A stretch of 64,000 nt of DNA from Amphiura filiformis (lineage: Eukaryota > Echinodermata > Ophiuroidea > Amphilepidida > Amphiuridae). Positions 3,278-61,510 of this stretch are shown here, in pieces. Made by a program: the position numbers and the translations under genes. The notes beneath the pieces were generated by a model. It did no database searches, was not told the origin of the DNA, and was given only the letters and a program-made list of their open reading frames with translations. Location of the stretch: assembly GCF_039555335.1 (NCBI RefSeq), contig NC_092637.1, positions 42,486,990 to 42,550,989 on the forward strand, in the 5' to 3' direction. Position 1 is the stretch's first letter. Every line of letters begins with the position of its first letter.

Positions 3278-3755
3278 ATCTTAATGTTCTATGACGAAAC
3301 CTGCTGCAACGAAATACGAAACTTTATCACAGATAATGTCAACAAAACCCGATAATGAAATTTCACGACTTAGTCCTCCTTTTACGGCAACATGTATCTT
3401 ATTCCTTCCTTACCAATGACATTGACCTCAAAGTAGCAACTTGCTCGTATGCTCTCATCTTCATCCTCGACCCAACATGTTACGTTCGTGGTCCCAATTG
3501 GGAAGGCATCACCTGACATATAATCACATGTCACGTTCAAAATTCCTGTTGTATCATTGGCTATTACGTCGGGCCACGTGACTTCAGCAGTAGGCATTCC
3601 AGGATCAGTCGGATGGTCAAGATAGTTCTCTGGACAGTCGATTTCAACTGTTTCAAGAAAATAATTTGAATGATATCATTCATTAATAGTTTCGTTTGAT
3701 ATAATTATAAAGAATGTGATCAAACAAACTAGCGCTTTATTTTACGAGAACTAAA
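3278..3755. repeat. Gene A segmental duplication, copy 2
   Basis: Direct duplicate of 1300-2230, without the foldback element found in copy 1. It contains exon 3414-3647. Confidence 0.7.
3414..3647 (-). CDS. HYR-domain exon (gene A, copy 2)
   Basis: A 234-bp exon with CAG acceptor (3650-3648) and GTAAGG donor (3413-3408), phase 1 at both ends. The protein is nearly the same as that of exon 1450-1683, starting EIDCPENYLDHPTDPG. Most changes are at the first residues and at D/I and Y positions. It carries the typical HYR order: opening Cys, WP, TTGILNVTCDY, SGDAFPIGTTNVTC and CYFEVNVIG. This is the most upstream HYR exon of gene A seen in the window. Upstream of it the intron is filled by a LINE (3860-7330). 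Confidence 0.85.
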
Positions 3756-4261: not shown

Positions 4262-4960
4262 TCAGAGTGGTATTGATCCAGGATATAATTTTTCATTCGT
4301 TTTTAAAGGAGGATAGGGAGCAAGAGTTTTAATGTCGTCGTTCAGTGAATTCCAAGTGGTAGGTCCCTGGGTTTTAATTGTGTTTTTGGCTAGCAGTGTG
4401 TTTGTCGTCGCGATGTTAAGGTCAAGGGCCTGTCTGGTCTCATAATTATGAATTTCAGAATTTGTCATGAAATGATTATTTGGTAAGTCCTGTGGGAGGA
4501 GGTCATGGTGGTAACGATACATATGAGTTGCTAGTTGAAACGTGTAAATATCACAAATTTTTAGTTTTTTTAAGGAAATGAAAAGAGGGGTTGAATGATC
4601 CAGCCAAAGTGAATAAGTGCATGTTCTGATGATTTTCTTTTGCATAATAAAAAGGGATTCCAAGTTACTATTATTTTTATCACCCCATACCATTGTACAA
4701 TAGGATAGGTATGGTAGCACCAGAGTGTTGTAAAGTGTTTGGAGTGAATACTGGTTTAAAAATGGTCTGACTTTCCTAATTATGCCGTTATATTTTGAAA
4801 CAATTTTTGATATATGGGATGTATGGGTCTTCCATGAAAGGTTGTTATCAATTAAAATACCTAGGAATTTAGTTACTTCTACTTTTTCGATATCTTTATT
4901 ATCAATTTCAATGTTAAAATTATGGTCAGGTTTATTGTTGTATTTATTTTTAAAGATCAT
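4262..4960 (-). pseudogene. LINE reverse transcriptase C-terminal region
   Basis: This frame carries the post-catalytic part of the LINE protein, with the family-typical FLGILIDNNLSWKTHTSHI and LVLPYLSYCTMVWG motifs. It ends about 380 bp before the 3' tail. Confidence 0.8.
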
Positions 4961-5138
4961 GAAGTTAGTTTTATCTATATTTAATGAAAGCTTATTGAAT
5001 TTAAACCAGTTCGAAATTTTCTTGAGTTCTTTATTTATTAATTCTTCAAGTTGTTCTGGGTCTTTGTGGGAAAAAAGAATGTTGGTGTCGTCAGCAAAAA
5101 TAATAAAATGGGAGGAAGGAGATGAAAGTGGAGGTCAT

Positions 5139-5813
5139 TTATATATAAAAGGAATAAAAGTGGCCCAAGGATTGATCCCTGGGGACACCGCATATTATGT
5201 CACCTTCTGCAGATTTCTGGTGGTTATAAACGACATACTGTTTTCTTTCACAAAGATAATTTTTTATTTTTAGATTGGCAAGACCTCTGATACCGTAGCT
5301 ATTTAGTTTTTGGAGAAGTATATCATGGTTGAGGGTATCAAAGGCCTTGCTTAAGTCTAAGAATATCCCAAGACTATGCAATTTTTCGTCTAACGCACCT
5401 GTAATTTTGCAGTAAAGGTCATTTATTGCCATGTATGTGGACCGGTTTGGTCTAAAACCATATTGGTGGGAACTTAAGATATTATTTTTAGCAATGAAAT
5501 CAGAAAGCCGGGTGTATATTATTTTTTCAAGTATTTTCGAGACAGAAGGTAATATTGAAATCGGCCTATAATTACTACAAATCTGATTATCACCAGATTT
5601 AAAAATTGGTATTACTTTTGCGATCTTGAGTAAAGATGGGACAATGCCTGTGAGTAGGGACCTATTGAAAATATGTGAGAGAACAGGGGCTATTTCATTG
5701 ATTATTGTTTTGAGTAGTTTAGTGCTTATATTGTCAAAGCCACTACTGTTGCTAGCCGTAAGTTTTTTAGTTATTTTAATTATTTCGTCAGGGGATGTTG
5801 GGTTTAAGAACAT
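5139..5813 (-). pseudogene. LINE reverse transcriptase core
   Basis: Reverse-transcriptase blocks are visible: GFDNISTKLLK, LLKIAKVIPIFKSGD, NYRPISILPSVSKILEKII, QYGFRPNRST and FLDLSKAFDTLNHDILL. The frame shifts at the GVPQG motif, which reads GVPR because one base is missing. A further shift lies before the FADD motif at 5098-5087. No active product is expected. Confidence 0.85.
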
Positions 5814-5893
5814 ACTGCTATGCTGATTTAATGAATTTAGTGGAGAGATGTAGTCATCGTCAGGAGTAGTTATTTTCTCAGCTAGCTTAGTGC

Positions 5894-6511
5894 CTATGTT
5901 GGTAAAAAAAAATTATTGAAGTTATCGGCTATTTCAGTTGAATTGGTAATTTTTTTGCCATCTTTATCTTTAAAGAAGTCGGGTAATTTGGTACGTCTGT
6001 TTCTACCTAGAAGATTATTCAATGTTTTCCAAGTTTCTTTCATGTTAAATTTATTTGATTCAATTTGGGCGGTAATATGGGATTTTTTGGCTGTACGTAG
6101 TAAATTATTTAATATATTTCTATATTTAGTATATTTAAGTTTATTTTCTGATGTAGGTTTAGAGATGTACTTTTTATATAGTTTATCTTTAGTTCTAATT
6201 GATTTAACAAGGCCTGTAGTGATCCAGGGCTTACGTGGTGATTTACGTTTGGACATTTTAGTTGTTCTTATAGGGCAGTGGATGTCTAATAGGCCAGTGG
6301 TTTTATTAATGAATTTCGTGTATGAGTTTTCAGGATTATCGTCGTGGAGTATAAAATCCCAATTGACAATAGACAGGGAGTTTTTGAAACCTTTAATATT
6401 ATTTGGTTTGAATTGCCTTGTTTGTTTAGTTATAGGTTGAGAAATGTTATCAAAACGAGAGCCTTTAACAGAAATAAAATTTGGGAAATGATCTGAGAGG
6501 TCTGTAACCAA
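5894..6511 (-). pseudogene. LINE endonuclease end and linker region
   Basis: The open frame starts near the conserved LSDHFP motif, which closes the AP endonuclease. It continues through a basic linker containing RKSPRKPWIT and NLLRTAKK. It stops at an 8-base A/T run near 5905; after a one-base shift the frame continues toward the reverse transcriptase. Confidence 0.75.
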
Positions 6512-6561
6512 GTTGCCAGAAGTTATTTGGTTATCAGTATCATTTGTAAAAATATTGTCAA

Positions 6562-7311
6562 TTAGCGAGATTGTAGTACCGGTCTTGGTTGTGTAGACTC
6601 GGGTGGGTCGATCAATACAGGGAAAAATGAATAGGCGTACATCAGATTAACGAATGTATTGACTTGATGGTTATGGTCAAATTTTAGGAGATCGATATTG
6701 AAGTCGCCTAAGACAAAACATTTTTTCCTTTCTTTAGAGATGGTATTCAGGGCTGATTCTAGGTCAGAAATGAACTGATGGTAATCGACATATTCTGGTT
6801 TATAAATGACGCCAACGATTATATTTCTATCAGGGATTTCGATGAAAACAGAGTCGCAGTGAGTGGCTTTTATTTTAAGGTCAGGTCTTTGAATGAAATT
6901 ATGTTTAGAGTGGATAAATAAGGACGCACCTCCACCAGATCTATCGGGGCGTATACAGTCTATTCTGTCATAGTTGTCAAGGTCAATTAAATTGGATTCA
7001 TCGGTTGAATTGAACCAGGTTTCTGTAAAACCTATAATGTCAAAATCATGATTTAGAATCGAAATGTAATCCACAATAGTACTAGCCTTTTTGTTAATAC
7101 TTCTGGTGTTGTGGTGGAATAAAGAAAATTTATTTTGGCGGAGGGCATTTTCATTAATAATTGAATTAGTGTCGTAATATTTGCATTTGCAGCACAGGTT
7201 TAGGTCAATGTTACATGAATTATCTGAAGTTTGGGAATGTGAATTGAGTACGCTACTAAATTTAGACGGAGTGAATTTGTGCTCTGACATGAAAGTTGAC
7301 AAATCGGGCAT
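6562..7311 (-). pseudogene. LINE AP endonuclease domain
   Basis: About 250 residues are open. AP-endonuclease marks run in order: the N-terminal HHNTRSINKKAS segment, FTETWF, SGGGASLFI, VIYKPEY and the FVLGDFNIDLL catalytic motif. The frame breaks near 6562, where the sequence before the SDHFP motif shifts. The family domain nicks target DNA to prime reverse transcription. No separate ORF1 was recognised upstream. Confidence 0.8.
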
Positions 7312-7555
7312 GGTGCGAACGGGACAAAGGGTGCAGGAGAGAAACTAAATTAAAGTGGAATTTGGTTAAAAAAAAGCAAATAAGGTTGGATTTGGTCTGA
7401 GGGAAAAGAGGAAAGAAGCCATTTTACGAGAACAAGCTGAAACCATGAAGATAAAATAAATTCATGGTTAAGTTAACAATCAATATGTGGTTTAGAACAA
7501 ATATAAGGGACTCATAGTCCCCTTTGATAATAAATACAATACAAGAAGTAAATAC

Positions 7556-11832: not shown

Positions 11833-11947
11833 CCATATCGCATGTTAATTGAGTAAAACTGTGATCCAAAGCATGGCCGTAAGAAGAAACGTCTCCAAAC
11901 CCATATAGATATGCAAGGAATTTGACATGATTCGATACATGATTAAT
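11833..11947 (-). CDS. IgGFc-binding exon, distal piece (gene A exon 2)
   Basis: The last 115 nt of gene A exon 2 are cut off from the rest by a 5.2-kb insertion. The minus-strand reading includes FLAYLYGFGDVSSYGHALDH and ends at LTCDM before a GTGAGT donor (11832-11827), phase 1 like every other gene A junction. The YLYGFG..SSYG pattern is typical of the end of an IgGFc-binding-type unit. The reading frame is the direct continuation of 17183-18351: the near side ends SHRIN and this side starts INHVSNH, with ATTAA repeated at both junctions. Without the insertion and one extra base near 17900, exon 2 would be 426 codons with symmetric phase. A continuation exon is therefore well supported, although it cannot be translated as it stands. 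Confidence 0.8.
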
Positions 11948-11953
11948 ACAATT

Positions 11954-12041
11954 ACACAGCCGTGACGTTAGTCACGGCTGTGTCTTTTTTCTTACAGGTT
12001 CTTCTTTCTTTACACAGCCGTGACGTTAGTCACGGCTGTGT
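11954..12041. repeat. Two identical hairpins, 58 bp apart
   Basis: ACACAGCCGTGAC, GTTA loop, GTCACGGCTGTGT forms a perfect 13-bp hairpin at 11954-11983, repeated exactly at 12012-12041. Each is followed by a T run and CTTACAGG. They mark the left end of the concatemer. Confidence 0.9.
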
Positions 12042-12162
12042 CTTTTTTCTTACAGGTTCTTCTTTCTTTCTTTCTTCTTTCTTCTTTCTTCTTTCTTCTT
12101 TCTGTCAACCATTACATTTGCTCTAGCACTCACATGCTTACATAGATTTTGACCTAACTTGT

Positions 12163-15100
12163 GGGGTCAAAGGTCACACAGGGGTCATAGGGGTCAAAAA
12201 CGCGATTTCGACTCAAAATGCATCTTCTCCTACAAATTACGTAGAACAGTGACGCCACTTGCACACATGCATTGTAATTACCAAGTGTCTATAAGGTGTA
12301 CACAGATTTGGGGTCAAAGGTCATTAAGGGGTCACTTCCGGTATAAAACGGAATACCTTCAAAAATTTTTATTATCTAAGGAAAACATAGGACAATAATG
12401 GTATGTTCACATATGAGTTGCAGTTATCCAATGTATATGTGGTATTTTTTTTTTATTTGGGGTCAAAGGTCATTAAGGGGTCATTTCCGGTATAAAACGA
12501 AATACCTTTAAAATGCATCTTCTCCCACAAATTACGTAGGACAGTGACACCACTTGCACACATGCATTGTTATTACCCAGTGTCAATGTGGTGTACACAG
12601 ATTTGGGGTCAAAGGTCATTAAGGGGTCACTTCCGGTATAAATTGAAATATTTTCAAAACATTTTATTAGCTAAGAAAAACATAGGAGAGTGATGGTATG
12701 TTCACACATGAATTGTTTTTTCCCAATGTATATATGGTGGTTTTTTTTTATTTGGGGTCATAGGTCATTAAGGGGTCATTTCGGTTTGAGACAAAAAAAC
12801 TTTCAAAATGCCCCTTCTGCCACAAATAACATGGCAAAGTGATGCCACGTACACACATACATTGACATTAGCCAATGTCTATGGGGTTTTCATATATTTT
12901 GTGGTCAAATGTCATTAAGGGGTAACAACACGGCTGTGTTCGTGGTCTTAGACCACAGCTAATTCTTCTTCTTTCTTCTTCTGTCAACCATTACATTTGC
13001 TCTAGCACTCACATGCTTACATCGATTTTGACCTAACTTCGTCACAATGATCATTGACCTTGCCCCTACATGTCACATGACACTGGTGGGGTCAAAGGTC
13101 ATGCTGGGGTCACAGGGGTCAAAACGTGATTTCAACTCAAAATGCACCTTCTCCTACAAATTACGTAGGACAGTGACGCAACTTGCACACATGCATTGTA
13201 ATTACCCAGTGTCTATAAGGTGTACACATATTTGGGGTCAAAGGTCATTAAGGGGTCACTTCCGGCATAAAACGGAATACCTTCAAATTTTTATCAGCTC
13301 AGGAAAACATAGGACAGTAACGGTATGTTCACATTTGAATTGCAGTTACCCAATGTACATGTGGTATTTTTTTATTTGGGGTCAAAAGGTCATTAAGGGG
13401 TCACTTCCGGTTTAAAACAAAATACCTTTAAAATGCATCTTCTCCCACAAATTACGTAGGACAATGACACCACTTGCACACATGCATTGTTATTAACCAG
13501 TGTCAATGTGGTGTACACAGATTTTGGGTCAAAGGTCATTAAGTGGTCACTTCCGGTATAAATCGAAATATCTTCAAAAAATTGTATAAACTAAGAAAAA
13601 CATAGGAGAGTGATGATATTTTCACACATGAATTGCGTTTACCCAATGTATATATGGTATTTTTTTATTTGGGGTCAAAGGTCATTAAGGGGTCATTTCC
13701 GGTATAAAACGAAATACCTTTAAAATGCATCTTCTCCCACAAATTACGTAGGACAGTGATGCCACTTGCACACATGCATTGTTATTAACCAGTGTCAATG
13801 TGGTGTACACAGATTTTGGGTCAAAGGTCATTAAGTGGTCACTTCCGGTATAAATCGAAATATCTTCAAAAAATTGTATAAACTAAGAAAAACATAGGAG
13901 AGTGATGATATGTTCACACATGAATTGCGTTTACCCAATGTATATATGGTATTTTTTTATTTGGGGTCAAAGGTCATTACGGGGTCATTTCCGGTATAAA
14001 ACGAAATACCTTTAAAATGCATCTTCTCCCACAAATTACGTAGGACAGTGATGCCACTTGCACACATGCATTGGTATTAACCAGTGTCAATGTGGTGTAC
14101 ACAGATTTTGGGTCAAAGGTCATTAAGTGGTCACTTCCGGTATAAATCGAAATATCTTCAAAAAATTGTATAAACTAAGAAAAACATAGGAGAGTGATGA
14201 TATGTTCACACATGAATTGTGTTTACCCAATGTATATATGGTATTTTTTTTTATTTGGGGTCAAAGGTCATTAAGGGGTCATTTCGGTATAAAACGAAAT
14301 ACCTTTAAAATGCATCTTCTCCCACAAATTACGTAGGAGAGTGATGCCACTTACACACATGCATTGTTATTACCCAGTGTCTATGGGGTGTACACAGATT
14401 TGAGGTCAAAGGTCATTAAGGTGTCACTTCCGGTATAAAACGAAATAACTTCAAAAAACTTTATCAGCCAAGAAAAATATAGCACAGAGACGGTACATTC
14501 ACTCATGAATTGATGTTACTCAGTGTATACGTGGTATTTTTTATTTGGGGTAAAAGGTCATTAAGGGGTCACTTCCGGTCTGAGACATAAAAGCCTTCAA
14601 AATGCCTCTTCTGCCATAAATAACATGGCAAAGTGATGCCACGTGCACACATACGTTGACATTAGCCAATGTTTATGGGATTTTCATATATTTTGGGGTC
14701 AAATGTCATGAAGGGGTCACAAAACGGCTGTGTTCGTGGTCTTAGACCACAGCTAAGTCTAGTTCTTTCTTCTTCTTCTGTCAACCATTACATTTGCTCT
14801 AGCACTCACATGCTTACATCGATTTTGACCTAACTTAGTCACAATGATCATTGACCATGCCCCTACATGTCACATGAAACTCGCGGGGTCAAAGGTCACG
14901 CAGGGGTCACAGGGGTCAAAAACGTGATTTCAACTAAAAATGCATCTTCTCCCACAACTTACGTAGGACAGCGACCCCACTTGCACACATGCATTGTTAT
15001 TACCCAGTGTCTATGTGGTGTACACAGATTTGGGGTCAAAGGTCCTTAAGGGGTCACTTCCGGTATAAAACGAAAAACCTTCAATTTATTTTATTAGCTA

Positions 15101-17130
15101 AGTAAAATATAGCACAGTAACGGTATGTTCACACATGATCAGCAGTCACCCAATGTATATGTGGTATTTTTTATTTGGGGTCAAAGCTCATTAAGGGGTC
15201 ACTTCCGGGATAAAAAGAAATACCTTTAAATGCATCTTCTTCCACAAATTATGTGGGACAGAGACGCCACTTGCACACATGCATTGTTATTACCCAGTGT
15301 CTATGGGGTGTACACGGATTCGGGGTGAAAGGTCATTAAGGGGTCAATTCCGGTATAAAATAAAATGCCTTCAAAAATGTTTTATTAGCTAAGTAAAACA
15401 TAGGGCAGTAACGGTATGTTCACACATGATCTGCAGTCACCCAATGTATATGTGGTATTTTTTTATTTGGGGTCAAATCTCATTAAGGGTCACTTCCGGT
15501 ATAAAACGAAATACATTTAAAATGCATCTTCTTCCACAGATTCTGTAGGACAGTGACGCCACTTGCACACATGCATTGTTATTACCCAGTGTCTATGGGG
15601 TCAAATGTCATTAAGGGGTCACCTCCGGTTTAAAACGAAAAACCTTCAAAAAATTGTATTTGCTAAGAAAAACGTAGGACAGTAACGGTATGTTCACACA
15701 TGAATTGTGGTTATCCAGTTTATATGTGGTATTATTTTATTTGGGGTCAAAGGTCATTAAGGGGTCACTTCCGGTATAAAACGATATACCTTCAAAATAC
15801 CCCTTCTGCCACAAAAAGCATAGCAAAGTGATACCACATGGACACGTGCATTGACATTAGCCAATGTCTACGGGGTTTTCATATATTTTGGGTTTAAATG
15901 TGATTAAGGGGTCACAACACGGCTGTGTTCGTGGTCTTAGACCACAGCTAAGTCTAGTTCTTCTTTCTTCTTTCTTCTTCTGTCAACCATTACATTTGCT
16001 CTAGCACTCACATGCTTACATCGATTTTGACCTAACTTGGTCACAATGATCATTGACCATGCCCCTACATGTCACATGAAACTTGTGGGGTCAAAGGTCA
16101 CGCAGGGGTCACAGGGGTCAAAAACGGGATTTCAACTAAAAATGCATCTCTCCCCACAACTTACGTAGGACAGCGACCCTACTTGCACACATGCATTGTT
16201 ATTACCCAGTGTCTATGTGGTGTACACAGATTTGGGGTCAAAGGTCATTAAGGGGTCACTTCCGGTATAAAACGAAAAACCTTCAAAATTTGTATTAGCT
16301 AAGTAAAACATAGCACAGTAACGGTATGTTCACATATGATCTGCAGTCACCCAATGTACATGTGGTATTTTTTTTATTTGGGGTCAAAGCTCATTAAGGG
16401 GTCACTTCCGGTATAAAAAGAAATGCCTTTAAAATGCATCTTCTTCCACAAATTATGTGGGACAGAGATGCCACTTGCACACATGCATTGTTATTACTCA
16501 GTGTCTATGGGTGTACACAGATTTGGGGTCAAAGGTCATTAAGGGGTCACTTCCGGTATAAAACGAAATACCTTCAAAAATTTTTATTAGATAAGTAAAA
16601 CATGGGACAGTAACGGTATGTTCACACATGATCTGCAGTCACCCAATGTACATGTGGTTTTTTTTTTTTATTTGGGGTCAAAGCTCATTAAGGGGTCACT
16701 TCCGGTATAAAAAGAAATGCCTTTAAAATGCATCTTCTTCCACAGATTCTGTAGGACAGTGACGCCACTTGCACACATGCATTGTTATTATCCAGTGTCT
16801 ATGGGGTGTACACAGATTTGGGGTCAAAGGTCATTAAGGGGTCACTTCCGGTATAAAACGAAAATCTTGAAAATGCTTCTTCTTCTTCTACTAATTACGT
16901 TGGACAGTGACGCCACTTGCACACATGCATTGTTATAACACAGTGTCTATATGGTGTACATACATTTGGGGTCAAAGGTCAGTAAGGGGTTACTTCCGGT
17001 ATAAAACGATATACCTTCAAAATATCCCTTCTGCCACAAAAAGCATAGCAAAGTGATGCCACGTGGACATGTGCATTGACATTAACCGATGTCTATGGGG
17101 TTTTCATATATTTTGGGGTCAAAGGTGATT
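12163..17130 (+). promoter_or_regulatory. Array of DR1 nuclear-receptor half-site pairs
   Basis: The minisatellite contains GGGTCAAAGGTCA, a direct repeat of RGGTCA-type half sites spaced by one base (DR1). By eye I count about 18 exact copies (for example near 12163, 12310, 12460, 12605, 13088, 13234, 13672, 13966, 14258, 15743, 16235 and 16820). Roughly ten more differ by one or two bases. DR1 is the known binding pattern of HNF4, RXR and COUP-TF receptors. Whether any receptor binds here is not shown by sequence. Confidence 0.6.
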
Positions 17131-17182
17131 AAGAGGTCACAACACGGCTGTGTTCGTGGTCTTAGACCACAGCTAAGTCTAG

Positions 17183-18351
17183 TTAATTCTGTGGCTAGTT
17201 AAGTCCCTCCTAGCGACGCATTCGTCTCCTTCTGATACGATATCTCGCCAATCGCTTATGTTAAAAGTCTCTCCATTGTATAGGATTCCGTCTAACTGGT
17301 CACACTTTATAACTAGGTTGAGATAATTGTTCAGAATATTATACAAACTCATATCGAAACTCGCAAAAGATATGAAATTATTGTATTGTTCCCACGGAGG
17401 AATTTCCATCATAAAAGGACTTCCAATCATATCAGTCATGAAGCCCTTAGCGAACTGTGCCACCAATATTGGCTTGTTGTATCTTATGATTGTCACGTTG
17501 TTTTTCCCCTGTATATCACCTGTATAGTATTGCCCTGCGTTTATAGCGACATCTCCTAGAGAACTTATTGTGGTATTCGTATCATCTCTAACAGCTACTA
17601 TGCGAAATATATATCCAGAGTCCCGACCGCTGAATGGTGCCAACGTAAAATGCCTATCAAGTCGATTGACAGAAGGCATATACGCTGCAATGGCATCGCA
17701 GTAACGCACATTGACTGGAACATTGACGCATTGCCCAGCAGATATGACACTAACCACGGCATTTGCTGTAACACGCAACCCACTGATATCCGATTCGTAT
17801 CTAAGTTGGGCAGATGTATATGACGGAATAACAAAGGATATGTTATAGTCATTTGTTTCATGTTGAAAATTGTGTGAAAACGGCCAATCATTGATTGGCG
17901 TCTTCTTTACCAGCTGTAATCATGAGTTCATATGGATAATTCCTCGACACGGGAGGATAATTAACAGCATAAAATTCCAAACCTGAAGCAGAGTGAAACG
18001 GAATTATAGGGAAGCTTGCAAGCGAACCCGGACTACGATATGAGACAGCTGTTACGTAGATATCCTGATCTGAAGTAATAATGATCGTACCATTCTGCAA
18101 TACCTCATCGGGGTTGGCTTCAGCCTCATCTGGAGCTCTAATGGAGTTGATTTCTTCTGGCTGCAAAATGACTTGCTCATACCAAGATATACCTGGAGCG
18201 GCAATAGTGATATTGCTTACGTCTAAATTTCCTGATTGAAGTTGGATATCCATGAATAGTTCTCCTGTTGGATAACGCATGCTTGGGAAACAGAAGACAA
18301 AATGTTTTCCCGCCAAAGTTTGGGTGGGTGGATAAGCCTGTGACAACATCT
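17183..18351 (-). CDS. IgGFc-binding-type exon, main piece (gene A exon 2), frameshifted
   Basis: The exon opens after a CCAG acceptor (18354-18352) in phase 1. It first reads GKHFVFCFPSMRYPTGELF, then NGTIIITSDQDIYVTAVSYR, FPIIPFHSASGLEFYAVNYP and YPYELMITAG. These are hallmarks of the IgGFc-binding N-terminal domain of secreted mucus and gut proteins. Near 17890-17915 the frame shifts by one base. The second part (to 17183) continues with NISFVIPSYTSAQL, NAGQYYTGD, NNVTIIRYNKPILVAQFAKG and MIGSPFMMEIPPWEQYNNF. It is then interrupted by the satellite element and resumes at 11947. Either the copy is a pseudogene, or the shift is a sequencing error and the insertion a removable or allelic event. 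The signal-peptide exon lies 600 bp upstream. Confidence 0.8.
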
Positions 18352-26091: not shown

Positions 26092-26268
26092 AAGCGGCTA
26101 CGGGACGACAGGTAACCTCGGTATTTTCTTGTCAACCTAACCCTAACCCTAACCCTTACCCTAAACCCTACCCCTAACCCCAATTAGATGTCGATTGACA
26201 GGATAGTGGTCAACGGATTACTGCTTACTGCGTGACAACAATAGTTACATGTCGCCCTGTAGCCGCTT
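26092..26268. mobile_element. MITE with telomere-like repeats inside
   Basis: AAGCGGCTACGGGACGACAG at the left is matched by the complement of GTCGCCCTGTAGCCGCTT at the right. Between them lies a short (CCCTAA)-type array (about 26140-26181) with variants. GATTAAA flanks both ends and may be the target duplication. Confidence 0.65.
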
Positions 26269-26970: not shown

Positions 26971-27012
26971 GACAGTTTCGTGCTAAGACTTAGCACTTTC
27001 TCAAATTGACTG
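26971..27012 (-). ncRNA. Degenerate hammerhead-like motif
   Basis: On the minus strand TTGAGAA is followed by a 7-bp stem (GTGCTAA, GTC, TTAGCAC) and GAAAC. This is the same layout as in the element at 38235-38855, but the CTGANGA box is damaged, so self-cleavage is unlikely. Confidence 0.45.
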
Positions 27013-27892
27013 ACCAATTCCTGCACCTTGACGGCTGCTTCCGGTTGGAGCTGACGTTGGTGGCGCTGTTAGGAGTTGGTCGTAGATGTGCGGTAGAAAG
27101 TAATTCCCTCGTCTCTGTTGAGTGTTTTGGCCCCTCTTTCTTATCCAGATGGCTTCCTTTATGTGTCTTCTTCTTTCTGTTCTGTTCTCTGTCTCTGATT
27201 TGTGATTCTTCCCATCCAATTACGTGATTGTCTTCTGCGACATGATCTGTTATAGCGGACTTGTTGTCCACCCCTGTAATGGATGCTTGTCTTTGAGATC
27301 TAGTATATGCTTTCTTTAAAGCTTTTTCCGCATCGGTTTTATGTTCTTTGAGTCTAGTTCCAAACAGTCTGGCGGTTTCTCCAATGTATGTTTTGTCGCA
27401 ATTGAGGCATGGGATCTCGTATACGCAGTCAGATGTTTGTGTGATGTCCCGCTTGTCTTTTGGGTGCACTAAAATATTTCTCAGCGTTTGGTGAGGTTTG
27501 AAGGCGGTGTTAATGCCGTGCTTCTTAAAGACCCGTCTCACACGCTGGGAGAGCCCTTCTTTAAAAGGGAGGACTACCATTCCTCTGGATTTAGACTCTG
27601 GTTGATCCTTGCTATGCGATTTATTTTTGCTTTGCGTTTGTTTAAAAGCCCATTCAGGGTAGCCGCACAACTTGAGAGCTTCTTTGATTTTGGCTTCTTC
27701 CTGTTTCTTATCTTCATCTTCTGTTACTACTTTGTCTTTCCTGTCCATGAGAGTGCGTATGACGCTAAGTTTGTGCTGTAGGGGGTGATGCGAATTGAAA
27801 TGCAAATACTGATCGGTGTGTGTCTTTTTGCGATATATGAGCAATTTGATGGAGCCGTCCTGCTTTTTGACAAAAATCCCGTTCCTCGACAC
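26990..27892 (-). pseudogene. Penelope RT end plus GIY-YIG endonuclease
   Basis: The frame is 300 codons. After the RT end (residues 1-45) comes a charged linker with LCGYPEWAF (near residue 95). A second segment follows with GLSQRVRRVFKKHGI. The GIY-YIG domain has VYEIPCLNCDKTYIGET, GTRLKEH and SAITDHV near residues 180-245. Penelope-like proteins join these two enzymes. The frame is still open, but the missing RT core makes it inactive. It is antisense to gene B, in its first intron. Confidence 0.85.
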
Positions 27893-28139
27893 CCTTATTG
27901 TTGGTGTTTGGTTGTTATTTGTTACACGTTTTGCTTCCGCTTTACATTTCTTTTGTTACACGTTTCGCCATTTACACGTATCTTGTTCTATTTAGTACTA
28001 ATGTTTCATGTTTCAACTATTCAGTAACACAATATCAAAATAACTACCAACATTCAACAACAAAAAAAACAATGGCTGCCAGAGGTTGAGCTGCTGTCAT
28101 GTCTGTGTCTGAAAATATCATCTTCGATCTGTACTGACT

Positions 28140-28655
28140 TTGCATGTTTGTGGGATTCCACCTGGATTAATGATGATTATCATCAGTTTTACACACCTGC
28201 TGGTTGTTTGGACTCTCACAATAACTGTTTTAGACTTGCATTTCACCAGATCCTCAGACACTGGTGTAGGCTTAACTACTGACTGCAGAATTCTGCACCT
28301 TGTTGCAGTTCATCATGGTCTAGACTTAGGCATACACCACACTTCATACAAAATTCATGGCACCAGATACCTCAACAGGCGAGTAACCTACTACGCTAAC
28401 AGCACTGCCTCATTTCAAGCATTACTCTTGTCTGGCGATATCCACCCTCATCCTGGACCACGGCAAGAGTGTTCTACGTGTAATAAGCCAATATTCAATA
28501 AATACCGTGTTCAGTGCACAGCATGTTGTGAACACTTCCACCGCAGGTGCAGCGGTTTGTCTATGCAACAGTTCCACTCTCTGAACTCACTCGTCTGGAC
28601 TTGCGTTAACTTGTTCGGATCCACTCCCACCATTTACAGACTCTTTCTTCAATAA
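28140..28655 (+). pseudogene. LINE ORF1-like segment: 2A-like relic and zinc finger
   Basis: Residues 95-107 read LLLSGDIHPHPGP (28422-28460), the position and form of the 2A-like sequence known from some LINEs (D-V/I-E-x-N-P-G-P). Here E and N have become H. A PHD-like zinc knuckle follows, with pairs CSTC, CTACC and HFHRRC and a final WTC. The frame shifts near 28620, before the endonuclease. The N-terminal part looks unlike any domain I know. Confidence 0.65.
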
Positions 28656-28729
28656 TTCTTCTGGTTCAAGTTTTCGGACTCAAAGTTATCTCAGACTATT
28701 AACTCTACATTATCACACTCCGACAATTA

Positions 28730-29202
28730 TATGTTGGGGTTCCACTTCAATGCCCAGAGTATCAAGAACAAATTCCGCGAATTTCAAACACTTATTCAGA
28801 CAAGCTCACCATCAATTTGTGCTTTAACAGAGACATGGTTGAATGACTCAATTCCAAACTCAGTTGTGCTTCAGAACTACTCCTAGCGCTGTCACCTGAA
28901 TTAGATCCCATTGTTGTCAACACCCCTCGCATTGATACCCTGCTTGAAACCAAATGGGTGTCATTTACAATCAAAAATGAAAAATGGTTGTGTGGTGTAG
29001 TCTACCGCCCTAAGGAAGTTACAAATGGTATCCAAGACCTTGAAACCATGCTCTGGGAGCTGACTGCTACACCCTACAGTGGTATCCTAGTTGTAGGTGA
29101 CTTTAATATAAACTGGAATTCCAATCACCCCTTGTTTCCTGAACTTGCCAATTTGGCAAATGCAAATAACCTCCATCAACTTGTTAATCAGGTTCTGCCA
29201 TG
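28730..29202 (+). pseudogene. LINE AP endonuclease
   Basis: Motifs in two frames: FHFNAQSIKNKFREF and CALTETWLNDSIP (28740-28855), then WLCGVVYRPKEV and ILVVGDFNINWNS (28980-29140). A one-base shift lies near 28880, and a stop at 29201-29203 is followed by the next frame. Confidence 0.75.
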
Positions 29203-29904
29203 AACCCCGAAGATGGTACCATGTTAGATCTGCTGTTTACATCAAGACCGGACCGTATTTGCAACGTTGACGTCACTGATGGGCTTGGCAAGTCTTATCA
29301 CTTGGGTGTGAAATTTCGCATCCGTGGTACTCCGAGTCGCCTTCAAAACCCTCTCCGGACATGCTTTGTTTATGCAAAGGCTGACAAGATTATATTGCAA
29401 AATCTTGTTTCCCGGACTGCATGGGACGTCTTGCTCCCCCTCGACATCGATGGTGCCTGGGATCAATTTCTCGATTTATTCATGGCATGTGTTAGGGACT
29501 CCATACCTTCTCGCACTCAAAGAAAACGTCCCAAGCCCTGGATTACACCAGAAATGCACAGACTCATAACTCGTAAACATGCCCTTTTTCGTAAGGCGAA
29601 GTCTTCTCAATCACAAACTGATTGGGCTGCATTAAAAAAAACTCGTAACAGGGTATCCAATGGTATAAAAGCTGCTTACAGTAACTACCTTCATTCTCTC
29701 CTCACTGCTGACGACAGTCAAAACCGCTTTTGGTCTTTTGTTCGTCGTCGCAACAAAGAACCCGATGTTAAATCATTTGTTGTCAACGGCAAACTGTGCT
29801 CTGACCCGGCCGTTATTGCTGACAATTTTAACCAAACTTTTGCTAGCTACTTCACTGCCCCCACCTCTCCAGCCTTTGATATCACATCTCCTTATTACCT
29901 GTGA
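29200..29904 (+). pseudogene. LINE endonuclease end and linker
   Basis: MLDLLFTSRPD and a YHLGVKF segment (a changed SDH motif) are followed by the basic linker KRPKPWITPEMHRLITRKH and FWSFVRRRNK. The linker leads to the RT start at 29901. Confidence 0.75.
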
Positions 29905-30627
29905 CCCCTTTATGCTCCCTCCAAATAACCATAGACCAAGTTATACACCGCATCAAAAAACTTAAAACTGATGGTGCTGTTGGTCCCGATGGTTTGTCAG
30001 CGAGGATGCTTAAGCTCTGCATGTACCAGGTTGCTCCAATTCTCACCAAATTATTTAATCTTTCTCTTAGTTCTGGTCACCTTCCTAGCGGCTGGAAACA
30101 AGCCAATATTGTCCTTGTTTATAAAAAGGTTTATATCAAATGTTGCCAATTACAGGCCCATCGCTTTGACTAGTATTGTCTGTAAAATGCTTGAAAGCAT
30201 CGTGGCTGACAACCTTCGTGTCCATCTAGGTAACAACAATCTCTTATCATTAAGTCAACATGGCTTTAAGCCTGGTTTATCATGCTGTACACTATTACTT
30301 GATAAAACAAATGAACTCTTGGAATTAATGGACAGTAAATCTACTCAAGTTGACCTCATTTCTCTAGACTACAGCAAAGCATTTGACTGTATATCACATA
30401 ACATTCTGATTTCTAAACTTGAAAAAACTTATGGTATCAGAGGTCAACTGCTTGCCTGGATCAGTTCCTTTGTCTTAGGTCGTGTTCAGAGGGTTACTTT
30501 TAGAGGGCAGAGTGCTGATTGGGTCTCGGTCCTTTCTGGAATTCCTCAGGGCTCTGTTCTTGGCCCCCTGCTCTTCTCCAGTTATGCCAATGATCTAGGC
30601 CAGCACTTGACCTCTGGTATCGGGTAA
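29901..30627 (+). pseudogene. LINE reverse transcriptase core
   Basis: KTDGAVGPDGLSARMLK, LPSGWKQANIV, then in the next frame NYRPIALTSIVCKMLESIV, QHGFKPGLSC, LDYSKAFDCISHNIL and GIPQGSVLGPLLF. TAA at 30625-30627 interrupts just before FADD. Confidence 0.85.
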
Positions 30628-31500
30628 TTTGCTGATGATACATTTCTTTATCGTGCTATTTGCAATGCTAATGATGTAAGGGATTTACAAATGGATCTTG
30701 ACAAGCTTTCAGTATGGTCGTCTCGTAATTCACTTCAATTGAATCCTACCAAATGTAAATTTATATCTATCACTCGTAAACGTACTTCATATCCATCAGT
30801 GTATAGTATTAACAACATCAATCTTGATCAGGTAAATAATCTTCCCCTCTTGGGTGTCATCATCTCAGATAAGCTTAATTGGGATGCCCATGTTAAGGAT
30901 GTTATAGCAAGAAGCTACAAACTTCTTGGTTTTATTCGCCATGTGGCCGGGGAATCTCCCCCAGAGGTTCTCCTCCAATTATATCGGACCATGGTCTTGC
31001 CCATCCTCGAATATTGCTCCCCTGTCTGGATGCCCCACACAAAGCGTCTCAAAAATGCTCTTAAACGCGTTCAAAGGACAGCCACCAGGGCTATTCTCCA
31101 TCAGAAGCGTCGCGAGGAGGAGTACAATGTTCGTTTGGAGCGTCTTGACCTCAGTTATTTGTCCCAAAGACGTGAATACATGTCCATTTCACTTGTTTCC
31201 AAATGCCTCCTCAATGTTGACTGCTGCAATGCTATGCCTGCTTTAAATAGAATCCGTCCAAATAGTAGGCATCCCGATCACCTTATTTTTCACCATCTCA
31301 AAGCCAAAACTGATGCTTTTCTTTATCATTCCATCCAACGCTTCCCCAAAAAATGGTCTGGCGACCCCCGTCACATCACTGATATTTATTTGTGCAATAG
31401 CTTTAACTGCTTCAAATCCCACTTGAGAGACTACTTCAGTCCATTCAAGAAATTTAATCCTTGGTGCCATCTATGTTTTGTTGTGGTGATAGGGTGGGAG
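30625..31500 (+). pseudogene. LINE RT catalytic motif and C-terminal region
   Basis: FADDTFLYR follows the stop at 30627. The long frame from 30691 then gives LNPTKCKFISI, LLGVIISDKLNWDAHVKD and LPILEYCSPVW, typical of LINE RT ends. Beyond about 31490 the frame runs into the 3' UTR. Confidence 0.8.
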
Positions 31501-31870
31501 GGGGGGGGGGCATTATCTCATTATGTTATGGTGTGTTTTTTCCCTGCTTGGCTAAGTGCAATATATTGTGTCCCTTGTATCTTAGGGCTTCATGCTTCTA
31601 GTTTTAACATAGTGCTGTTTTTAAAAAATGTTTGTACTTTTAATGTGTTAATAATCTTTGTAATGTTTATGTGTATTTATAGTGCAATACTTTGTTTATT
31701 TTCATGACCAGCTTGCAAGGGTGGGGTCCACTCATCTTTTAGATGTCAGTGCTTTCTTTGCCACTTTTGTTTGGCCCTGGCAGCCCTTGCTTGCTGGTCT
31801 AATTTTGCTGTATATTTTAGTTGAAATGCCTAATGAATAATAATAAATAATAAATAATAATAAATAAATA

Positions 31871-32132
31871 CTCTAAATGTCATGCTACACTCGGCTCCCC
31901 GGCAACATTAATGCCGGGCATTATGTTTGCCTAGAAAGTCGTACAAACATGCGATTTTTACTGGTTTGGGGAACAAATGAAAGAAAGTTAAATTACCATT
32001 TATTCGAAATACCTACGTCAATATTACTTAAAATTTTTGTGTAAGTAAAAAAACTCACTGGGCTTCGCCAAAACCCTTAGCCTCAAAGTGTAAAGACTCC
32101 GATGTTCACTTATATCTTTTTCTCGTTTACAG
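31871..32132. other. Gene B intron
   Basis: A CCCGGCA/TGCCGGG pair near 31898-31918 is the only structure seen. Confidence 0.4.
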
Positions 32133-32489
32133 GTGCTCCAACTACCCAACCCGTATTAACAACTGAAGATAATGGAACCCAACCAACGTCTACTACTTCA
32201 CTCAGTCTAACTAATTCCACAACACATCTTGAATATGCCACTACTGTCAGTTCTGATGAAATAACTACAGGAGAAGAGACTACACAGCATGAATCTACCA
32301 CTACTGTCAGTTCTGATGAATCAACTACAGGAGAAGAGACAACACAGCATGAGTATACCACTACTTTCAGTTCTGAAGAATTAACTACAGGAGAAGAGAC
32401 AACACAGTCTGAATCTACCACTACTGTCAGTTCTGTTGAATCTACAACTGTGGAAGTGTCATCAACTGTTCCATACACAACCTTAACAT
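32133..32489 (+). CDS. Ser/Thr-rich mucin exon (gene B exon 2)
   Basis: A 357-bp exon with TTTACAG acceptor and GTAAGA donor (32490), phase 1 at both ends. It encodes a proline/threonine-rich start (APTTQPVLTTEDNGTQPTST) and about four 20-residue repeats of the TTGEETTQHESTTTVSSDES type. Such regions are dense targets for O-glycosylation and form extended mucin rods. The repeats are the same family as those in the large exon at 39983-41617 but more diverged, so exon 2 may be an older or partial copy of it. Confidence 0.8.
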
Positions 32490-32804
32490 GTAAGAAAGTA
32501 ATATAATTCATTAGAAGTGTAACCATAGTAACGGTACTGTTTGAATTGAGGCTCATTTATATGTTAAATAACAAGGGTAAAAACATACATATTATGAATA
32601 TATTAATTAGACATTGAGAATAACAATTATTCAGCATTACGGAAGTTACATCTGTATACTACATTACACGCCATTTTAATGTATAGGGATATTATCGAAC
32701 AATCAGACTCAGACTGTACGGGCAGGTGAAATAATATACGTTATAGTATTTCTAAGAGTACGTTGTCGGTTATCACAGTCCCGGTGCAGCCGTTCCCTGT
32801 GTGA

Positions 32805-32916: not shown

Positions 32917-33101
32917 GAAGAAGAAGAAGAAGAAGAAGAAGAAGAAGAAGAAGAAGAAGAAGAAGAAGAAGAAGAAGAAGAAGAAGAAGAAGAAGAAGAA
33001 GAAGAAGAAGAAGAAGAAGAAGAAGAAGAAGAAGAAGAAGAAGAAGAAGAAGAAGAAGAAGAAGAAGAAGAAGAAGAAGAAGAAGAAGAAGAAGAAGAAG
33101 A
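32917..33101 (+). repeat. Pure (GAA) run, about 61 units
   Basis: About 185 bp are uninterrupted GAA, followed by GGA-type variants to about 33118. It lies in intron 2 of gene B. Long GAA/TTC runs can form triplex DNA and hinder transcription in known cases. Confidence 0.95.
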
Positions 33102-33349
33102 GGAGGAGGAGGAAGAGGTAGTCAGAGAAATAGCACTTGCTTTTGAACTTTTCTTCAGTTCTGATGAAGTCAGAGACCACTCATATCTAAATCTATTTAT
33201 CAAAATATTTATTAAATATCAGGTTAGACTGTTTTGCTACACGCAGTGCACCCCAACGGTCTCAGCAAGATAATCCCCGGGAAGAAGGAAGATCTTGAAA
33301 TCTTTTCTTCTTATGGTGATGAAAGTCGTATGGGAAACCTAAGAAGAGT

Positions 33350-38855: not shown

Positions 38856-39982
38856 AAACCTGATGAATCTCTTCACAAACACAATACAGTCTAAGGTTGC
38901 CCAGCAGGGCTACAAATAAACAATCAAGGTTAAACTTTAAATTAGCCCCCTATAGAGGACATGGCTTGAAGAATGAGGGAAATTAAGAGGTAAAATGTAC
39001 AAAAAATTTATAAGTATATAATGGTGGACGGACTGTCTCTAAGTATGAAATGGGTCAGGGCTGTCGATAACGAAAATGGAATTCCTGTCATACTTAGATG
39101 TCAATATAGCCTTCATATGGGTCTTCTACTGGTGTCTTGCTGCTATAGAGGTCCTGGTAGAAATGTTCAACTCTGGATGCTATACCATCCCGGTCTGTTA
39201 TTATTTCCCCATCCACATCTGGCAGGGCAACCATCTGTGATCTCCCATGTGTTACTGTTGTTTTACCTCATTGTAGCTGCTGCCTTCTTCCAAAGTTTGC
39301 TGTACCTTCTTGACATTGTGTTCTTTAAGCTCTACCTTCAGTCGTTTCCTGATAGTTTTACATACTTCTGAATATTCTATTTTATACAGACGCAAGTGGC
39401 CATGCATATACCCTAAAGTCACTTACATTATGGAGGGCAGAATTAACCGTCCATTTGTTGCCAAAATGGGGTACCGAAATGAGTAACATAAACATTGTAG
39501 ACATATATGGACATAGATGGTTCTGGTTTTAAGCCCTCGATATTTTGTAACTGATTGGTTTATTGCCTATTGTTACTTTGTTCGCATGTTGCCGTTTAGT
39601 TTATAATCTAACCTTCTGAAAACCGTCAGTACATTATTTTTGAAATCTTTAACATTGGTCAAGTTTCAAATCAAAATTTTACCAGTATTGGTATTTATCG
39701 ACAGACAATGGATCAACAACAGAAAATCTGGCCATAATGACAAAGCTTACAACGCCAATCCTGCTTATTGTATGTAGCACAATAAAATGCTGTTTTTCAA
39801 TAATTTTCTTTAACCAGAAATATGCAGGAAGTATACATCAGAAAAGTACTTGTATGGATTTGGTGGCTCTTGTTGTTACACTGCATTTATGTTCTTTCAA
39901 AATCCTTGTCGTACGTTTTAAAATGCTCAATCGAGTATCTACTTTGTAAATATTTGATTTTCGTTTTTGTTTTTCATGACAG
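38856..39982. other. Gene B intron
   Basis: A 116-codon plus-strand open frame (39021-39371) has no recognisable domain and no fitting splice context. I see nothing else. Confidence 0.35.
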
Positions 39983-41617
39983 TCATTGGGTCAACAAGAG
40001 AAACACCGACCCCTCTGCCACAACTTACTACATTAGACGAGGTAACCAAGCCTAAATCTACCAATCCTGTTAGTACTGCTGAATTAATTACAGGAGGAGA
40101 GACAACCCAGCCTGAATCTACTACTCCTACCAGTCTCGCTGAATTAACTACAGGAGGAGAGACAACCCAGCCTGAATCTATCACTCCTACTAGTCTCGCT
40201 GAATTAACTACAGGAGGAGAGACAACACGGCCTGAATCTATCACTCCTACTAGTCTCGCTGAATTAACTACAGGAGGAGAGACAACACGGCCTGAATCTA
40301 CCACTCCTACCAGTCTCGCTGAATTAACTACAGGAGGAGAGACAACCCAGCCTGAATCTACCACTCCTACCAGTCTCGCTGAATTAACTACAGGAGGAGG
40401 GACAACCCAGCCTGAATCTACCACTCCTACCAGTCCTGCTGAATTAACTACAGGAGGAGAGACAACCCAGCCTGAATCTACCACTCCTACCAGTCTCGCT
40501 GAATTAACTACAGGAGGAGAGACAACCCAGCCTGAATCTACCACTCCTACCAGTCTCGCTGAATTAACTACAGGAGGAGAGACAACCCAGCCTGAATCTA
40601 TCACTCCTACCAGTCTCGCTGAATTAACTACAGGAGGGGAGACAACCCAGCCTGAATCTACCACTCCTACCAGTCTCGCTGAATTAACTACAGGAGGAGA
40701 GACAACCCAGTCTGAATCTACCACTCCTACCAGTCTCGCTGAATTAACTACAGGAGGGGAGACAACCCAGCCTGAATCTACCACTCCTACCAGTCTCGCT
40801 GAATTAACTACAGGAGGAGGGACAACCCAGCCTGAATCTACCACTCCTACCAGTCTCGCTGAATTAATTACAGGAGGGGAGACAACCCAGCCTGAATCTA
40901 CCACTCCTACCAGTCTCGCTGAATTAATTACAGGAGGGGAGACAACCCAGCCTGAATCTACCACTCCTACCAGTCCTGCTGAATTAACTACAGGAGGAGA
41001 GACAACCCAGCCTGAATCTGCTACTCTTGTCAGTCCTGCTGAATTAACTACAGGAGGAGAGACAACCCAGTCTGAATCTACCGCTCCGGTTAGTCCTGCT
41101 GAATTATTAACTACAGGAGGGGAGACAACCCAGCCTGAATCGACCACTCCTGCCAGTCCTGCTGAATTAACTACAGGAGGAGAGACCACCCAGCCTGAGT
41201 CTACCACTCCTGCCAGTCCTGCTGAATTAACTACAGGAAGAGAGACAACCCAGCCTGAATCTACCACTCCGGTTAGTCCTGCTGAATTATTAACTACAGG
41301 AGGGGAGACAACACAGCCTGAATCTACCACTCCGGTCAGTCTTGCTGAATTAACTACAGGAGGAGAGACAACTCAGCCTGAATCTACCATTTCTGTCAGT
41401 TCTGCTAAATCAACTACAAGAGAAGGGGTAGTCCAGCCTGAATTCACCACTCCTATTAGTCCTGCTAACTCAACTACAAGAGAAGAGGTAACACAGACAG
41501 AACCTATCACTCCTCTCAGTCCTGCTGAATCAACCCAGCCTGAATATATCACTTCATCCAGTACAGCTGCACCAACTACCATGACTGACGGCTTGATTTC
41601 TGCGTCAACAACCCAAG
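39983..41617 (+). CDS. Mucin tandem-repeat exon (gene B exon 4)
   Basis: A single 1635-bp exon (545 codons) after a GACAG acceptor and before a GTATGT donor, phase 1 at both ends. It holds about 24 copies of a 60-bp unit encoding ELTTGGETTQPESTTPTSLA. The units in 40081-41100 are almost identical, while the edges are more diverged, as expected for a minisatellite that grows and is homogenised from its centre. Every unit is rich in Thr, Ser and Pro, so the product is a long O-glycosylated rod. The array length probably differs between individuals. Two units near 41101 and 41281 carry one extra codon, which keeps the frame. Confidence 0.9.
40081..41520 (+). repeat. 60-bp coding minisatellite
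   Basis: About 24 units of exactly 60 bp, or 63 bp in two cases. Because 60 is a multiple of three, the antisense strand is also open for 463 codons. That frame is a by-product. Confidence 0.9.
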
Positions 41618-41928
41618 GTATGTTATTAAGACTTCATTATTCTTCATGTAATTTTCTAGTCAAGGATATAAGTAGTTTTATTTGTATTCGATCGACCCTG
41701 AGGAGGTCTGAGAGTAACATCAGCTCATATCAATTTTTAGCAGCGTGACATCGTATTCGAATTTCCCATTCCATGTACAGAATTGACGTCATCGGTATAA
41801 CTCATAGGAGTATTCCGGGCTATTTTAGTCGTTAACGCAAGTAATGGATGGACTTTCCCCCATAATACCATTACTCATCCCTCCTACCAACCCACCCACA
41901 CGTTTTTACACTATACGCTTATTATACT

Positions 41929-48394: not shown

Positions 48395-48924
48395 GTCCAC
48401 TCTAAATTTCGAACCAAACAAATAAGGTAAAACGAAATAAATTGCTATTTCATTCCAGCACCTAAAACGCGTGTATTAGCAGATTGTATTATTTATCATG
48501 TACAAACAAGACGTCAGACGAATAGCTACACTACAAGATTCCTGGCGACGTAGTACCTCTGCTGCAAAGTTACTTCGCGGCTACTACCGATGCTACTACC
48601 GAGTACCCAATCCCTTTGTGGCCGACGTTGGTACTACACCAAAGTACCAGCGTCGGCCACTCTAACATATACTTAATTTTGGTGCAATTTGTATTGTCAA
48701 CTCCTGAACTAAGCACCCTAGTGTAATATGACAACAGACTTTTTTTTATTCCTAGCAATGAGAGAAACAATGTGAGGTATATTACAACATGATACCACAC
48801 ATTTTACATTTTGATCCTATTATGACCTACGACCACCCATGGGAAGCTAGTTTAGAGGGCATAGAAAAATGGAACCAATCCTTGTTTTATCATTTGAGGT
48901 GTAAGGATTTCAAAAATCATTGGT
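48395..48924. other. Non-coding stretch with one strong hairpin
   Basis: Apart from the hairpin at 48618-48660 nothing was recognised. Confidence 0.35.
48618..48660. repeat. 17-bp hairpin
   Basis: GTGGCCGACGTTGGTAC pairs with GTACCAGCGTCGGCCAC (one G-T pair) around a 9-base loop. Confidence 0.85.
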
Positions 48925-51272: not shown

Positions 51273-52445
51273 GTTTGACCTAAGACTTCTTATTTAGAAC
51301 CGTAAACACCTTAAAATGGCAGCGCACCTTTGAAGCTGAAAGTTACAATTGTAGGACGAATATTTACTAATAACCGATGCCGATACCGATTTTAGTAATA
51401 TAACAACAAAACTGTCATAATTATGAGAGAAAATATATCACTTCGAAGCATCAAACCCCAAAATGTACTTTTTTGGCCATATAACTTGGTCAATTTCAGT
51501 GATTTTAAAATAGTCTTTTCAGTATTTCCATGCATCGCCCAGACCTATTAATGGTATATAATCTCAGGGAATGTAGAAGTTGATGTATTATGAATATGAA
51601 TGTATGATTTTTTTTTTTTTTCTTGTGTGGTGTTTTGGATGTATGTGTATGAAGTGAAGAAAGTCCAAACAAACTCTTCACACATTATGTATGTTGCATT
51701 AATGTTTGTAATAGGCCTTTATTTACTAGTGAGTAAGGGTAGGGGTGAGTTAGGCACGAGGGAGGGGTAAGTGAGCGAGGCGTGTGTGGGCGGGGCTGTG
51801 TGTGGGCGAGTGCAGGGTGTATGAGCGAGCGAGGCAGGTTTATTAAACTCACAAAACAATTGTACTTTTCTTTCAGCACTTTGCTTTTTAATTTATTTTA
51901 TTTTTACATTACACATAATAATGTACAACATCTATTTTAATATACAGTATGATACACAAGTTAGGGAACAAACAAGTAAGTTTGAAATGTTGAACGATCA
52001 ACTTTGACCAATGTATTAATTAGTTTTTTCGCAAACTTAATCAGACTTTTTGACCCCCTGCCCCTAATGAAAGGACTTACAGGACCTCATCCAACTTAAG
52101 ATTTCTTCCCTTAGGATTGTCTGTCAACCAGAAATTAACTGCCCAAGTTTTTGGCTGTCAATCAGTAATTAAGCAAAACCAAGTTAGTTGGGATATACTG
52201 TGAACACAACACAATATTTGAGATATTTTCAATATGTAGTGCTCCTGGAGCATAGCTTATTTGCTAACCATCATCATCAGTAGACTGCAGAGCAGGCAAC
52301 AACAAGTTTCCTCCACCTGCAATCATGGGCCATTGAAACAACTTACTCCGGGTGTAACATCATCAGAATCATGCACTACAAGCTGGATACCCTGCAAAAC
52401 AGTGTGCACTGTTGACCAGGTTTTCTCTTCCCTAATCAACCTCTA
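51273..52445. other. Non-coding, nothing firm recognised
   Basis: A T run (51608-51621) and a G-rich GAGCGAGG/GTGGGCGGGG stretch (51730-51840) are present. Confidence 0.35.
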
Positions 52446-60239: not shown

Positions 60240-60299
60240 AAATTCATCTCAACTACAGAACAATGTTACTGTTACACATTATTTAAAACCAACATCACT

Positions 60300-61270: not shown

Positions 61271-61510
61271 CAGAGGTCAACGCAAGCAACAGTTTCTGTG
61301 ATGCCGAATCGGGATCTGTCAGATCCTCTTCAGTAACTGTGACAGTCTCTGACATGCTAGCTGCAGGAGGGCGGTGTTCTATGTGTCCATTTCGTTGGTG
61401 GCCATACTCAAATTTAATGCGTAGTTCTCCTATCTTGGACTTGGGTAGGATGTCTGGTATGTATTCTATGATGAATGGTGTTGGTTCTTTTTGGTCTGGT
61501 GCTGTGTTGC
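61251..61510 (-). CDS. Last exon of gene C
   Basis: The exon starts after a TTGTAG acceptor in phase 1 and codes for 86 codons to a TAA at 61253-61251. The reading has [30 protein letters not shown], an acidic [17 protein letters not shown] and the end LTSATDITK. The last codons and the stop lie in the first unit of the 42-bp minisatellite (TTGACCTCTGCTACGGATAT). The protein has no membrane segment here, and I do not recognise the family. A beta-rich fold is suggested by alternating hydrophobics only. Confidence 0.7.

Follow-up and report, generated by a model that had tools for sequence, protein, structure and literature searches.

The Split Exon and Its Surroundings

The window, by which we mean the whole 64,000-nucleotide stretch of Amphiura filiformis DNA that was analysed, carries an IgGFc-binding exon on its minus strand. 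A repeat block of about 5.2 kb, placed at 11943-17187 by reading of the sequence, interrupts this exon. The proximal part (17183-18351, minus strand) is defined by open frames and a Pfam PF17517 match, and directly ahead of it on the same strand stands what appears by eye to be an acceptor (TTTTCTCTCCAG). The distal part (11833-11947, minus strand) was recognised by translation after joining and by the position of a donor: excision between two copies of TTAAT leaves an open frame ending in DLTSHRINHVSNHVKFLAYLYGFGDVSSYGHALDHSFTQLTCDM, followed by a GTGAGT that begins at 11832. The sequence-only reading had let the distal part end at this donor after SSYG; the donor is present, but it follows TCDM(G), 14 residues further on.

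The proximal fragment alone matches PF17517 (IgGFc_binding) at positions 47-285 of 297 with 127 bits. In the protein joined between the TTAAT copies, hereafter the shorter join, the match extends to position 297 of 297 (132.2 bits), while the 36-residue distal piece alone is without a Pfam match up to an E-value of 1. The proximal match, with its extension to the profile end on joining, indicates a split conserved domain rather than a chance frame, and the open reading across the excised block that had been claimed earlier is borne out. Two further open frames with HYR domains lie downstream on the same strand (1403-1726 and 3382-3675) and may be parts of the same gene. A PDB search returned Plexin-B1 as its sole match, with an insignificant E-value of 0.99. 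A scan of genome contigs with the window's protein found no relative; the bacterial relative found on a plasmid gave one as the query of such a scan.

Other repeats and mobile elements also lie in the window. Remains of a non-LTR retrotransposon with reverse transcriptase and endonuclease domains lie between the IgGFc and HYR exons (4262-7344, minus strand), and a second reverse-transcriptase element, with an RVT_1 match of 75.6 bits at 29935-30627, occupies 28113-31707 (plus strand). At 26136-26180 stands a short interstitial array of (CCTAAC)n, which is the TTAGGG telomere repeat in another rotation. Near it lies an open frame (26990-27955) whose GIY-YIG match, at 20.3 bits, stays below the cut-off of 22.6; a Penelope-like element is a guess here. 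Two Ser/Thr-rich open frames made of 60-bp (20-residue) repeats, at 39958-41748 (24.8 copies) and 32081-32506 (3.7 copies), look related and are mucin-like in appearance. Tandem repeats include a 70-bp array at 48921-51273 (33.5 copies, 89% matches), repeats of 42 bp, organised in a higher-order period of 240 bp, at 60297-61280, and a (GAA)n run of 66.7 copies at 32917-33116.

Anatomy of the Insert

Read on the plus strand, the insert shows in order TT, a subTIR hairpin, a TTC/TTTC microsatellite, a conserved start, repeats of about 146 bp, a 3' subTIR, a palindrome, CTAAGTCTAG and TT. This order equals the published HINE scheme, so that the satellite corresponds to the repeats in the centre of a transposon of the rolling-circle kind. 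From this anatomy, set against the published descriptions (PMC4067079, PMC7492417), the insert is very probably a composite HINE, a non-autonomous Helentron with the ~146-bp satellite as its central part, that runs from TTACACAGCC to CTAAGTCTAG on the plus strand. The element proper thus spans 11952-17182, not the full 11943-17187 given by the sequence-only reading. That reading had described a "mobile satellite" inserted as a discrete unit in a coding exon. The discrete mobile insertion holds; the mobile unit is the HINE, and the satellite is its central repeat.

The outer 5' subTIR and its complementary arm (11954-11983, plus strand) form a hairpin with 13-bp arms and a 4-nt loop (-17 kcal/mol, z -9.1). 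The 5' subTIR, ACACAGCCGTG at 11954, has an 11-bp complement at 17143-17153, in keeping with the 11-15 bp of HINE subTIRs; this complement lies in the 3' subTIR ACACGGCTGTGT (17142-17153, plus strand), found by sequence search. Hairpin analysis placed the 3' palindrome GTGGTCTTAGACCAC, with 6-bp arms, at 17156-17170 (plus strand), 12 nt ahead of the CTAG end at 17182 and inside the HINE range of 8-35 bp. The microsatellite and central tandem repeats expected of a HINE are present, and TT stands on both flanks (11952-11953 and 17183-17184). The 3' subTIR ends 29 nt from the element end (17153 to 17182), against 38-60 bp in mite HINEs, a range stated for mites and not for all HINEs (PMC4067079). 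Hairpin z scores are -9.1 for both copies of the 5' end that the insert contains, and -3.2, -1.3, -2.8 and -2.8 for the 3' ends of its modules A to D (see below). Measured against canonical Helitrons, the 5' end differs, reading TTACACAG and not TC, and the 3' end agrees: CTAG ends 12 nt past the palindrome, TT is preceded by A, and CTAG is followed by T.

No Helentron protein came to light when ten open frames of the window were scanned with Pfam. A Rep/helicase/endonuclease encoded by a Helentron elsewhere in the genome would have mobilised the HINE by rolling-circle copying, and the copy would have entered the exon at a TT. The 3' end, the 5' hairpin and the repeat core, scanned for as exact patterns in viral contigs, had 0 matches each, a literature search with sequence strings of the element returned no title on it, and a composition profile was uninformative. 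The termini, the TT target and the nesting described below are all read from one locus; the strings TTACACAGCCGTGAC and GACCACAGCTAAGTCTAG would mark other copies of this family. By eye, the 5' end also reads like a splice acceptor on the plus strand (CTTTTTTCTTACAG/G, at 11984-11998 and 12042-12056), and it could create exons after a sense-orientation insertion of the element into an intron.

The Junctions and the Empty Site

Sequence search places the TTAAT copies at 11943-11947 and 17183-17187, as claimed, and the first TT of the right copy directly follows the CTAG of the element. The sequence-only reading had taken this direct repeat for a 5-bp target duplication. HINEs are described as inserting at TT without target-site duplication (PMC4067079, PMC7492417); the authors of the DINE-1 work first proposed a 2-bp TT duplication, and later none after redefining the 5' end (PMC2374699). 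Joining at TT with no duplication likewise leaves an open frame here; the exon is then longer by 9 bases and reads SHRINCINHVSNH. An empty exon of the duplication type would read SHRINHVSNH, as would one reached by a new copy that carried along donor flank. Because both joins are open and duplication is, by published accounts, foreign to HINEs, a target duplication is unproven, and the original target, said earlier to be readable, is ambiguous by 9 bp. The empty state of the exon can nevertheless be predicted to within 9 bases.

Of 200,000 TT sites drawn at random from the window, the insert excepted, 4.3% had the 5-mer that starts at the TT once more within the preceding 14 nt, and 1.4% had it at a frame-keeping offset. 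The TTAAT repeat is therefore real yet only moderately improbable. The shorter join has a slight advantage of 2-3 bits in profile scores: 132.2 versus 129.3 bits with Pfam (a difference of 2.9), and 124.3 versus 122.3 bits (2.0) with a profile of our own. The latter was built from 35 bacterial domain rows (34 from L001-L034, plus P0001), with one gene accounting for three of the rows (L001, L002, P0001) and another for two (L003, L004); it took one best domain per open frame, dropped domains of fewer than 200 residues, and drew on 30 of the matches from a scan that matched 87 of 395 genomes.

We lean towards an insertion without target duplication, in which TTAAT already stood twice in the host, as TTAATACAA-TT-AAT. 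A true 5-bp duplication, with an element ACAATTACACAG...CTAAGTCTAG joined through a staggered cut, is unlikely. It would account for a repeat that chance produces at few sites and for the better score of the shorter join under both profiles, an open join that sets 239 residues over 239 profile positions, counted from the end points only. Against it, Helentrons and HINEs, DINE-1 included, are reported without target-site duplication (PMC4067079, PMC7492417, PMC2374699), the extra ACAA is missing from the internal 5' end, and the longer join is open too. It is rather improbable that the new copy instead brought along some 9 bases from the left flank of its donor, after a nick upstream of the usual 5' end, and was joined at TT, the AAT match being due to chance or microhomology. 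Such an event would reconcile the no-duplication rule with the better-scoring shorter exon, and variable nicking in T-rich flanks has been proposed (PMC4067079); that proposal, as described, concerns runs of T and not 9 mixed bases, and the present locus gives no sign of donor flank. In our judgement, what likelihood is left falls to causes other than these three. Whatever the history, a short direct repeat at the edges of an insert is insufficient to infer target duplication.

State of the Interrupted Gene

A stop codon directly follows SHRIN at the junction and the frame ends there, so that the end of the domain and anything downstream of it would be lost. The insertion therefore probably disrupts the gene, in agreement with the sequence-only reading, which had also found no splice-site pair that would remove the insert. 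We found none either. With approximate matrices, no donor above 3 bits occurs from about 17437 to about 16787, and a single acceptor above 3 bits, at 12375, lies between about 12647 and the distal exon end. An ordinary intron, or a join made in assembly, is a very improbable reading of the interruption: the stop comes at once, there is no such donor near the junction, and both edges coincide with HINE termini. Such a reading would be in keeping with the reliance on a single genome, with the proneness of repeat-rich junctions to misassembly and with a frame change nearby.

This frame change, absent from the sequence-only reading, lies within the exon at 17888-17919 (minus strand), where two open frames overlap and the Pfam match continues across an X. 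Joining the frames across the X raises the PF17517 match to 145.3 bits and extends it to positions 6-297. Independent of the insert, it could reflect either mutation or an error of sequencing. A short intron at this place was considered by eye only and was rejected, since the sole candidate pair checked broke the frame. Given this second lesion, the insertion may not have disabled the gene by itself; either event may have come first, and the gene need not have been alive when it was hit.

Outside the frame change, the exon holds 437 sense codons without a stop (about a dozen are counted twice, since the frames overlap). The simulated chance of such an absence of stops is 0.09 at 5% divergence and 0.02 at 8%. 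The loss of function, if complete, is thus probably fairly recent.

Modules of the Composite

All ends in the insert, two of the 5' and four of the 3' kind, share one orientation, and its internal junctions lie inside pyrimidine microsatellite. The second 5' end (12010-12067, plus strand) is 58 bp long and aligns to the first with 100% identity; it starts exactly at the element terminus TTACACAG, inside the microsatellite of the first. Repeat search delimits an uninterrupted TTC/TTTC microsatellite at 12057-12103, with TT on the plus strand only: the stretch 12053-12103 contains 13 non-overlapping TT and no AA. Module analysis divides the remainder into four modules, all on the plus strand. 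Module A (12104-12962) consists of the conserved start, ~146-bp repeats, 3' subTIR and palindrome, and ends in CTAA, without GTCTAG. A microsatellite remnant that starts with TT (12963-12982) separates it from module B (12983-14762), which ends in CTAAGTCTAG and has one mismatch in its 3' subTIR. Remnants that likewise start with TT stand between B and C (14763-14779) and between C and D (15958-15981); module C (14780-15957) ends in CTAAGTCTAG, and module D (15982-17182) forms the outermost 3' end. All three internal 3' ends (A, B and C) pass directly into TTCTT microsatellite.

The four modules contain 34 repeat anchors, 33 located by pattern search and one (15893) added by eye. Their spacings are 128-150 bp in 30 of 33 cases, and the other three, of 187-194 bp, coincide with module borders. 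Conservation is concentrated at the ends. All six module pairs are identical over the first 40 bp (40/40), and their tails up to CTAA agree at 38-39 of 40 positions in the last block plus 5/5. In the 240 bp ahead of the tail, identity per 40-bp block varies from 65% to 98%, and the best-scoring local alignment of each module pair has 82-90% identity (81.8% for A-D, 90.1% for C-D). These conserved ends suggest that every module formerly moved as an element of its own, a pattern that gene conversion could mimic.

A four-module body could have arisen if further HINEs entered TT sites in the polypyrimidine microsatellite of a resident HINE, and we hold such growth by serial self-insertion with about even confidence. 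Since TT occurs in the microsatellite on the strand of the element alone, stacking in the same orientation would be forced. Simple nesting needs equal numbers of 5' and 3' ends; two against four here would mean that two 5' ends were lost, or collapsed in the assembly. Also against the reading as a composite HINE stand the absence of GTCTAG from module A, and the subTIR mismatch and weak hairpin score of module B.

Alternatively, the composite may have entered the exon prebuilt, by copying from the outer 5' end past three internal 3' ends, a reading that we regard as possible although doubtful. Tandem Helitron arrays and bypass of termination signals have been described (PMC5876387, PMC4067079, PMC5148889). 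The modules are 82-90% identical, while the exon is free of stops besides the frame change, so that they diverged before the gene began to decay or came from different elements. Copying of this kind would have had to skip the internal ends of B and C, which keep the palindrome and CTAAGTCTAG, and the ratio of ends is the reverse of that reported elsewhere: according to a review, plant arrays often have many 5' ends and one 3' end, and Fusarium composites are described with several 5' ends and a single 3' end (PMC5148889).

To return to serial self-insertion, we suggest tentatively, and with some doubt, that the microsatellite acts as a landing pad for the element's own kind, and that dispersed satellite arrays would grow from inside, in one orientation, so that one insertion becomes a higher-order satellite. 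If true, the process would be visible here inside an exon. A correct nesting model would provide a simple, testable rule for the one-orientation lengthening of transposon-borne satellites. That HINEs spread satellite repeats is not new, and the insert adds a clear case in coding sequence. It is a new member of the HINE family with an unusually legible composite structure, lying in a coding exon, and is ordinary in kind.

Relation to Known Elements

A lepidopteran Helitron-like family, which Coates is said to have treated in 2010, reportedly disrupts (GAAA)n microsatellites. The elements that follow are compared with the insert by layout. Cg_HINE of Crassostrea gigas resembles the insert in its subTIRs, complementary IR, microsatellite, central repeats, palindrome and TT target (PMC7492417). 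Its 5' subTIR is normally 11-12 bp long with the complementary IR 1-12 bp away, and its satellite-like central repeats are mostly 140-180 bp, with 147 bp in cluster CL6 (PMC7492417). The microsatellite differs, being of the GTCY type in several Cg_HINEs versus TTC/TTTC in the insert, and the body of four stacked modules with four 3' ends is unlike that described for Cg_HINE (PMC7492417). Complex tandemised Helitron loci are also described in oyster (PMC12628747, PMC11136912).

The arthropod DINE-1/HINE elements share with the insert the subTIRs, 3' hairpin, microsatellite in the left block, central repeats and TT (PMC4067079, PMC2374699). Their presence in predicted coding sequence is rare, with 0 to 15 cases in the 11 Drosophila species listed (PMC4067079, PMC2374699).

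The proto-Helentron of Phytophthora infestans has a 5' TT and a 3' CTAG and lies between A and T, as the insert shows A, TT...CTAG, T (PMC4067079); this arrangement and the TT rule predict one and the same empty site. The proto-Helentron is a coding element of about 14 kb with Helitron-like structure, in contrast to the HINE layout of the insert with subTIRs, microsatellite and satellite repeats (PMC4067079). Finally, the FoHeli composites of Fusarium oxysporum also have multiple termini, explained by self-insertion (PMC5148889). They carry several 5' ends and one 3' end (PMC5148889), whereas the insert has two 5' and four 3' ends, joined in microsatellite.
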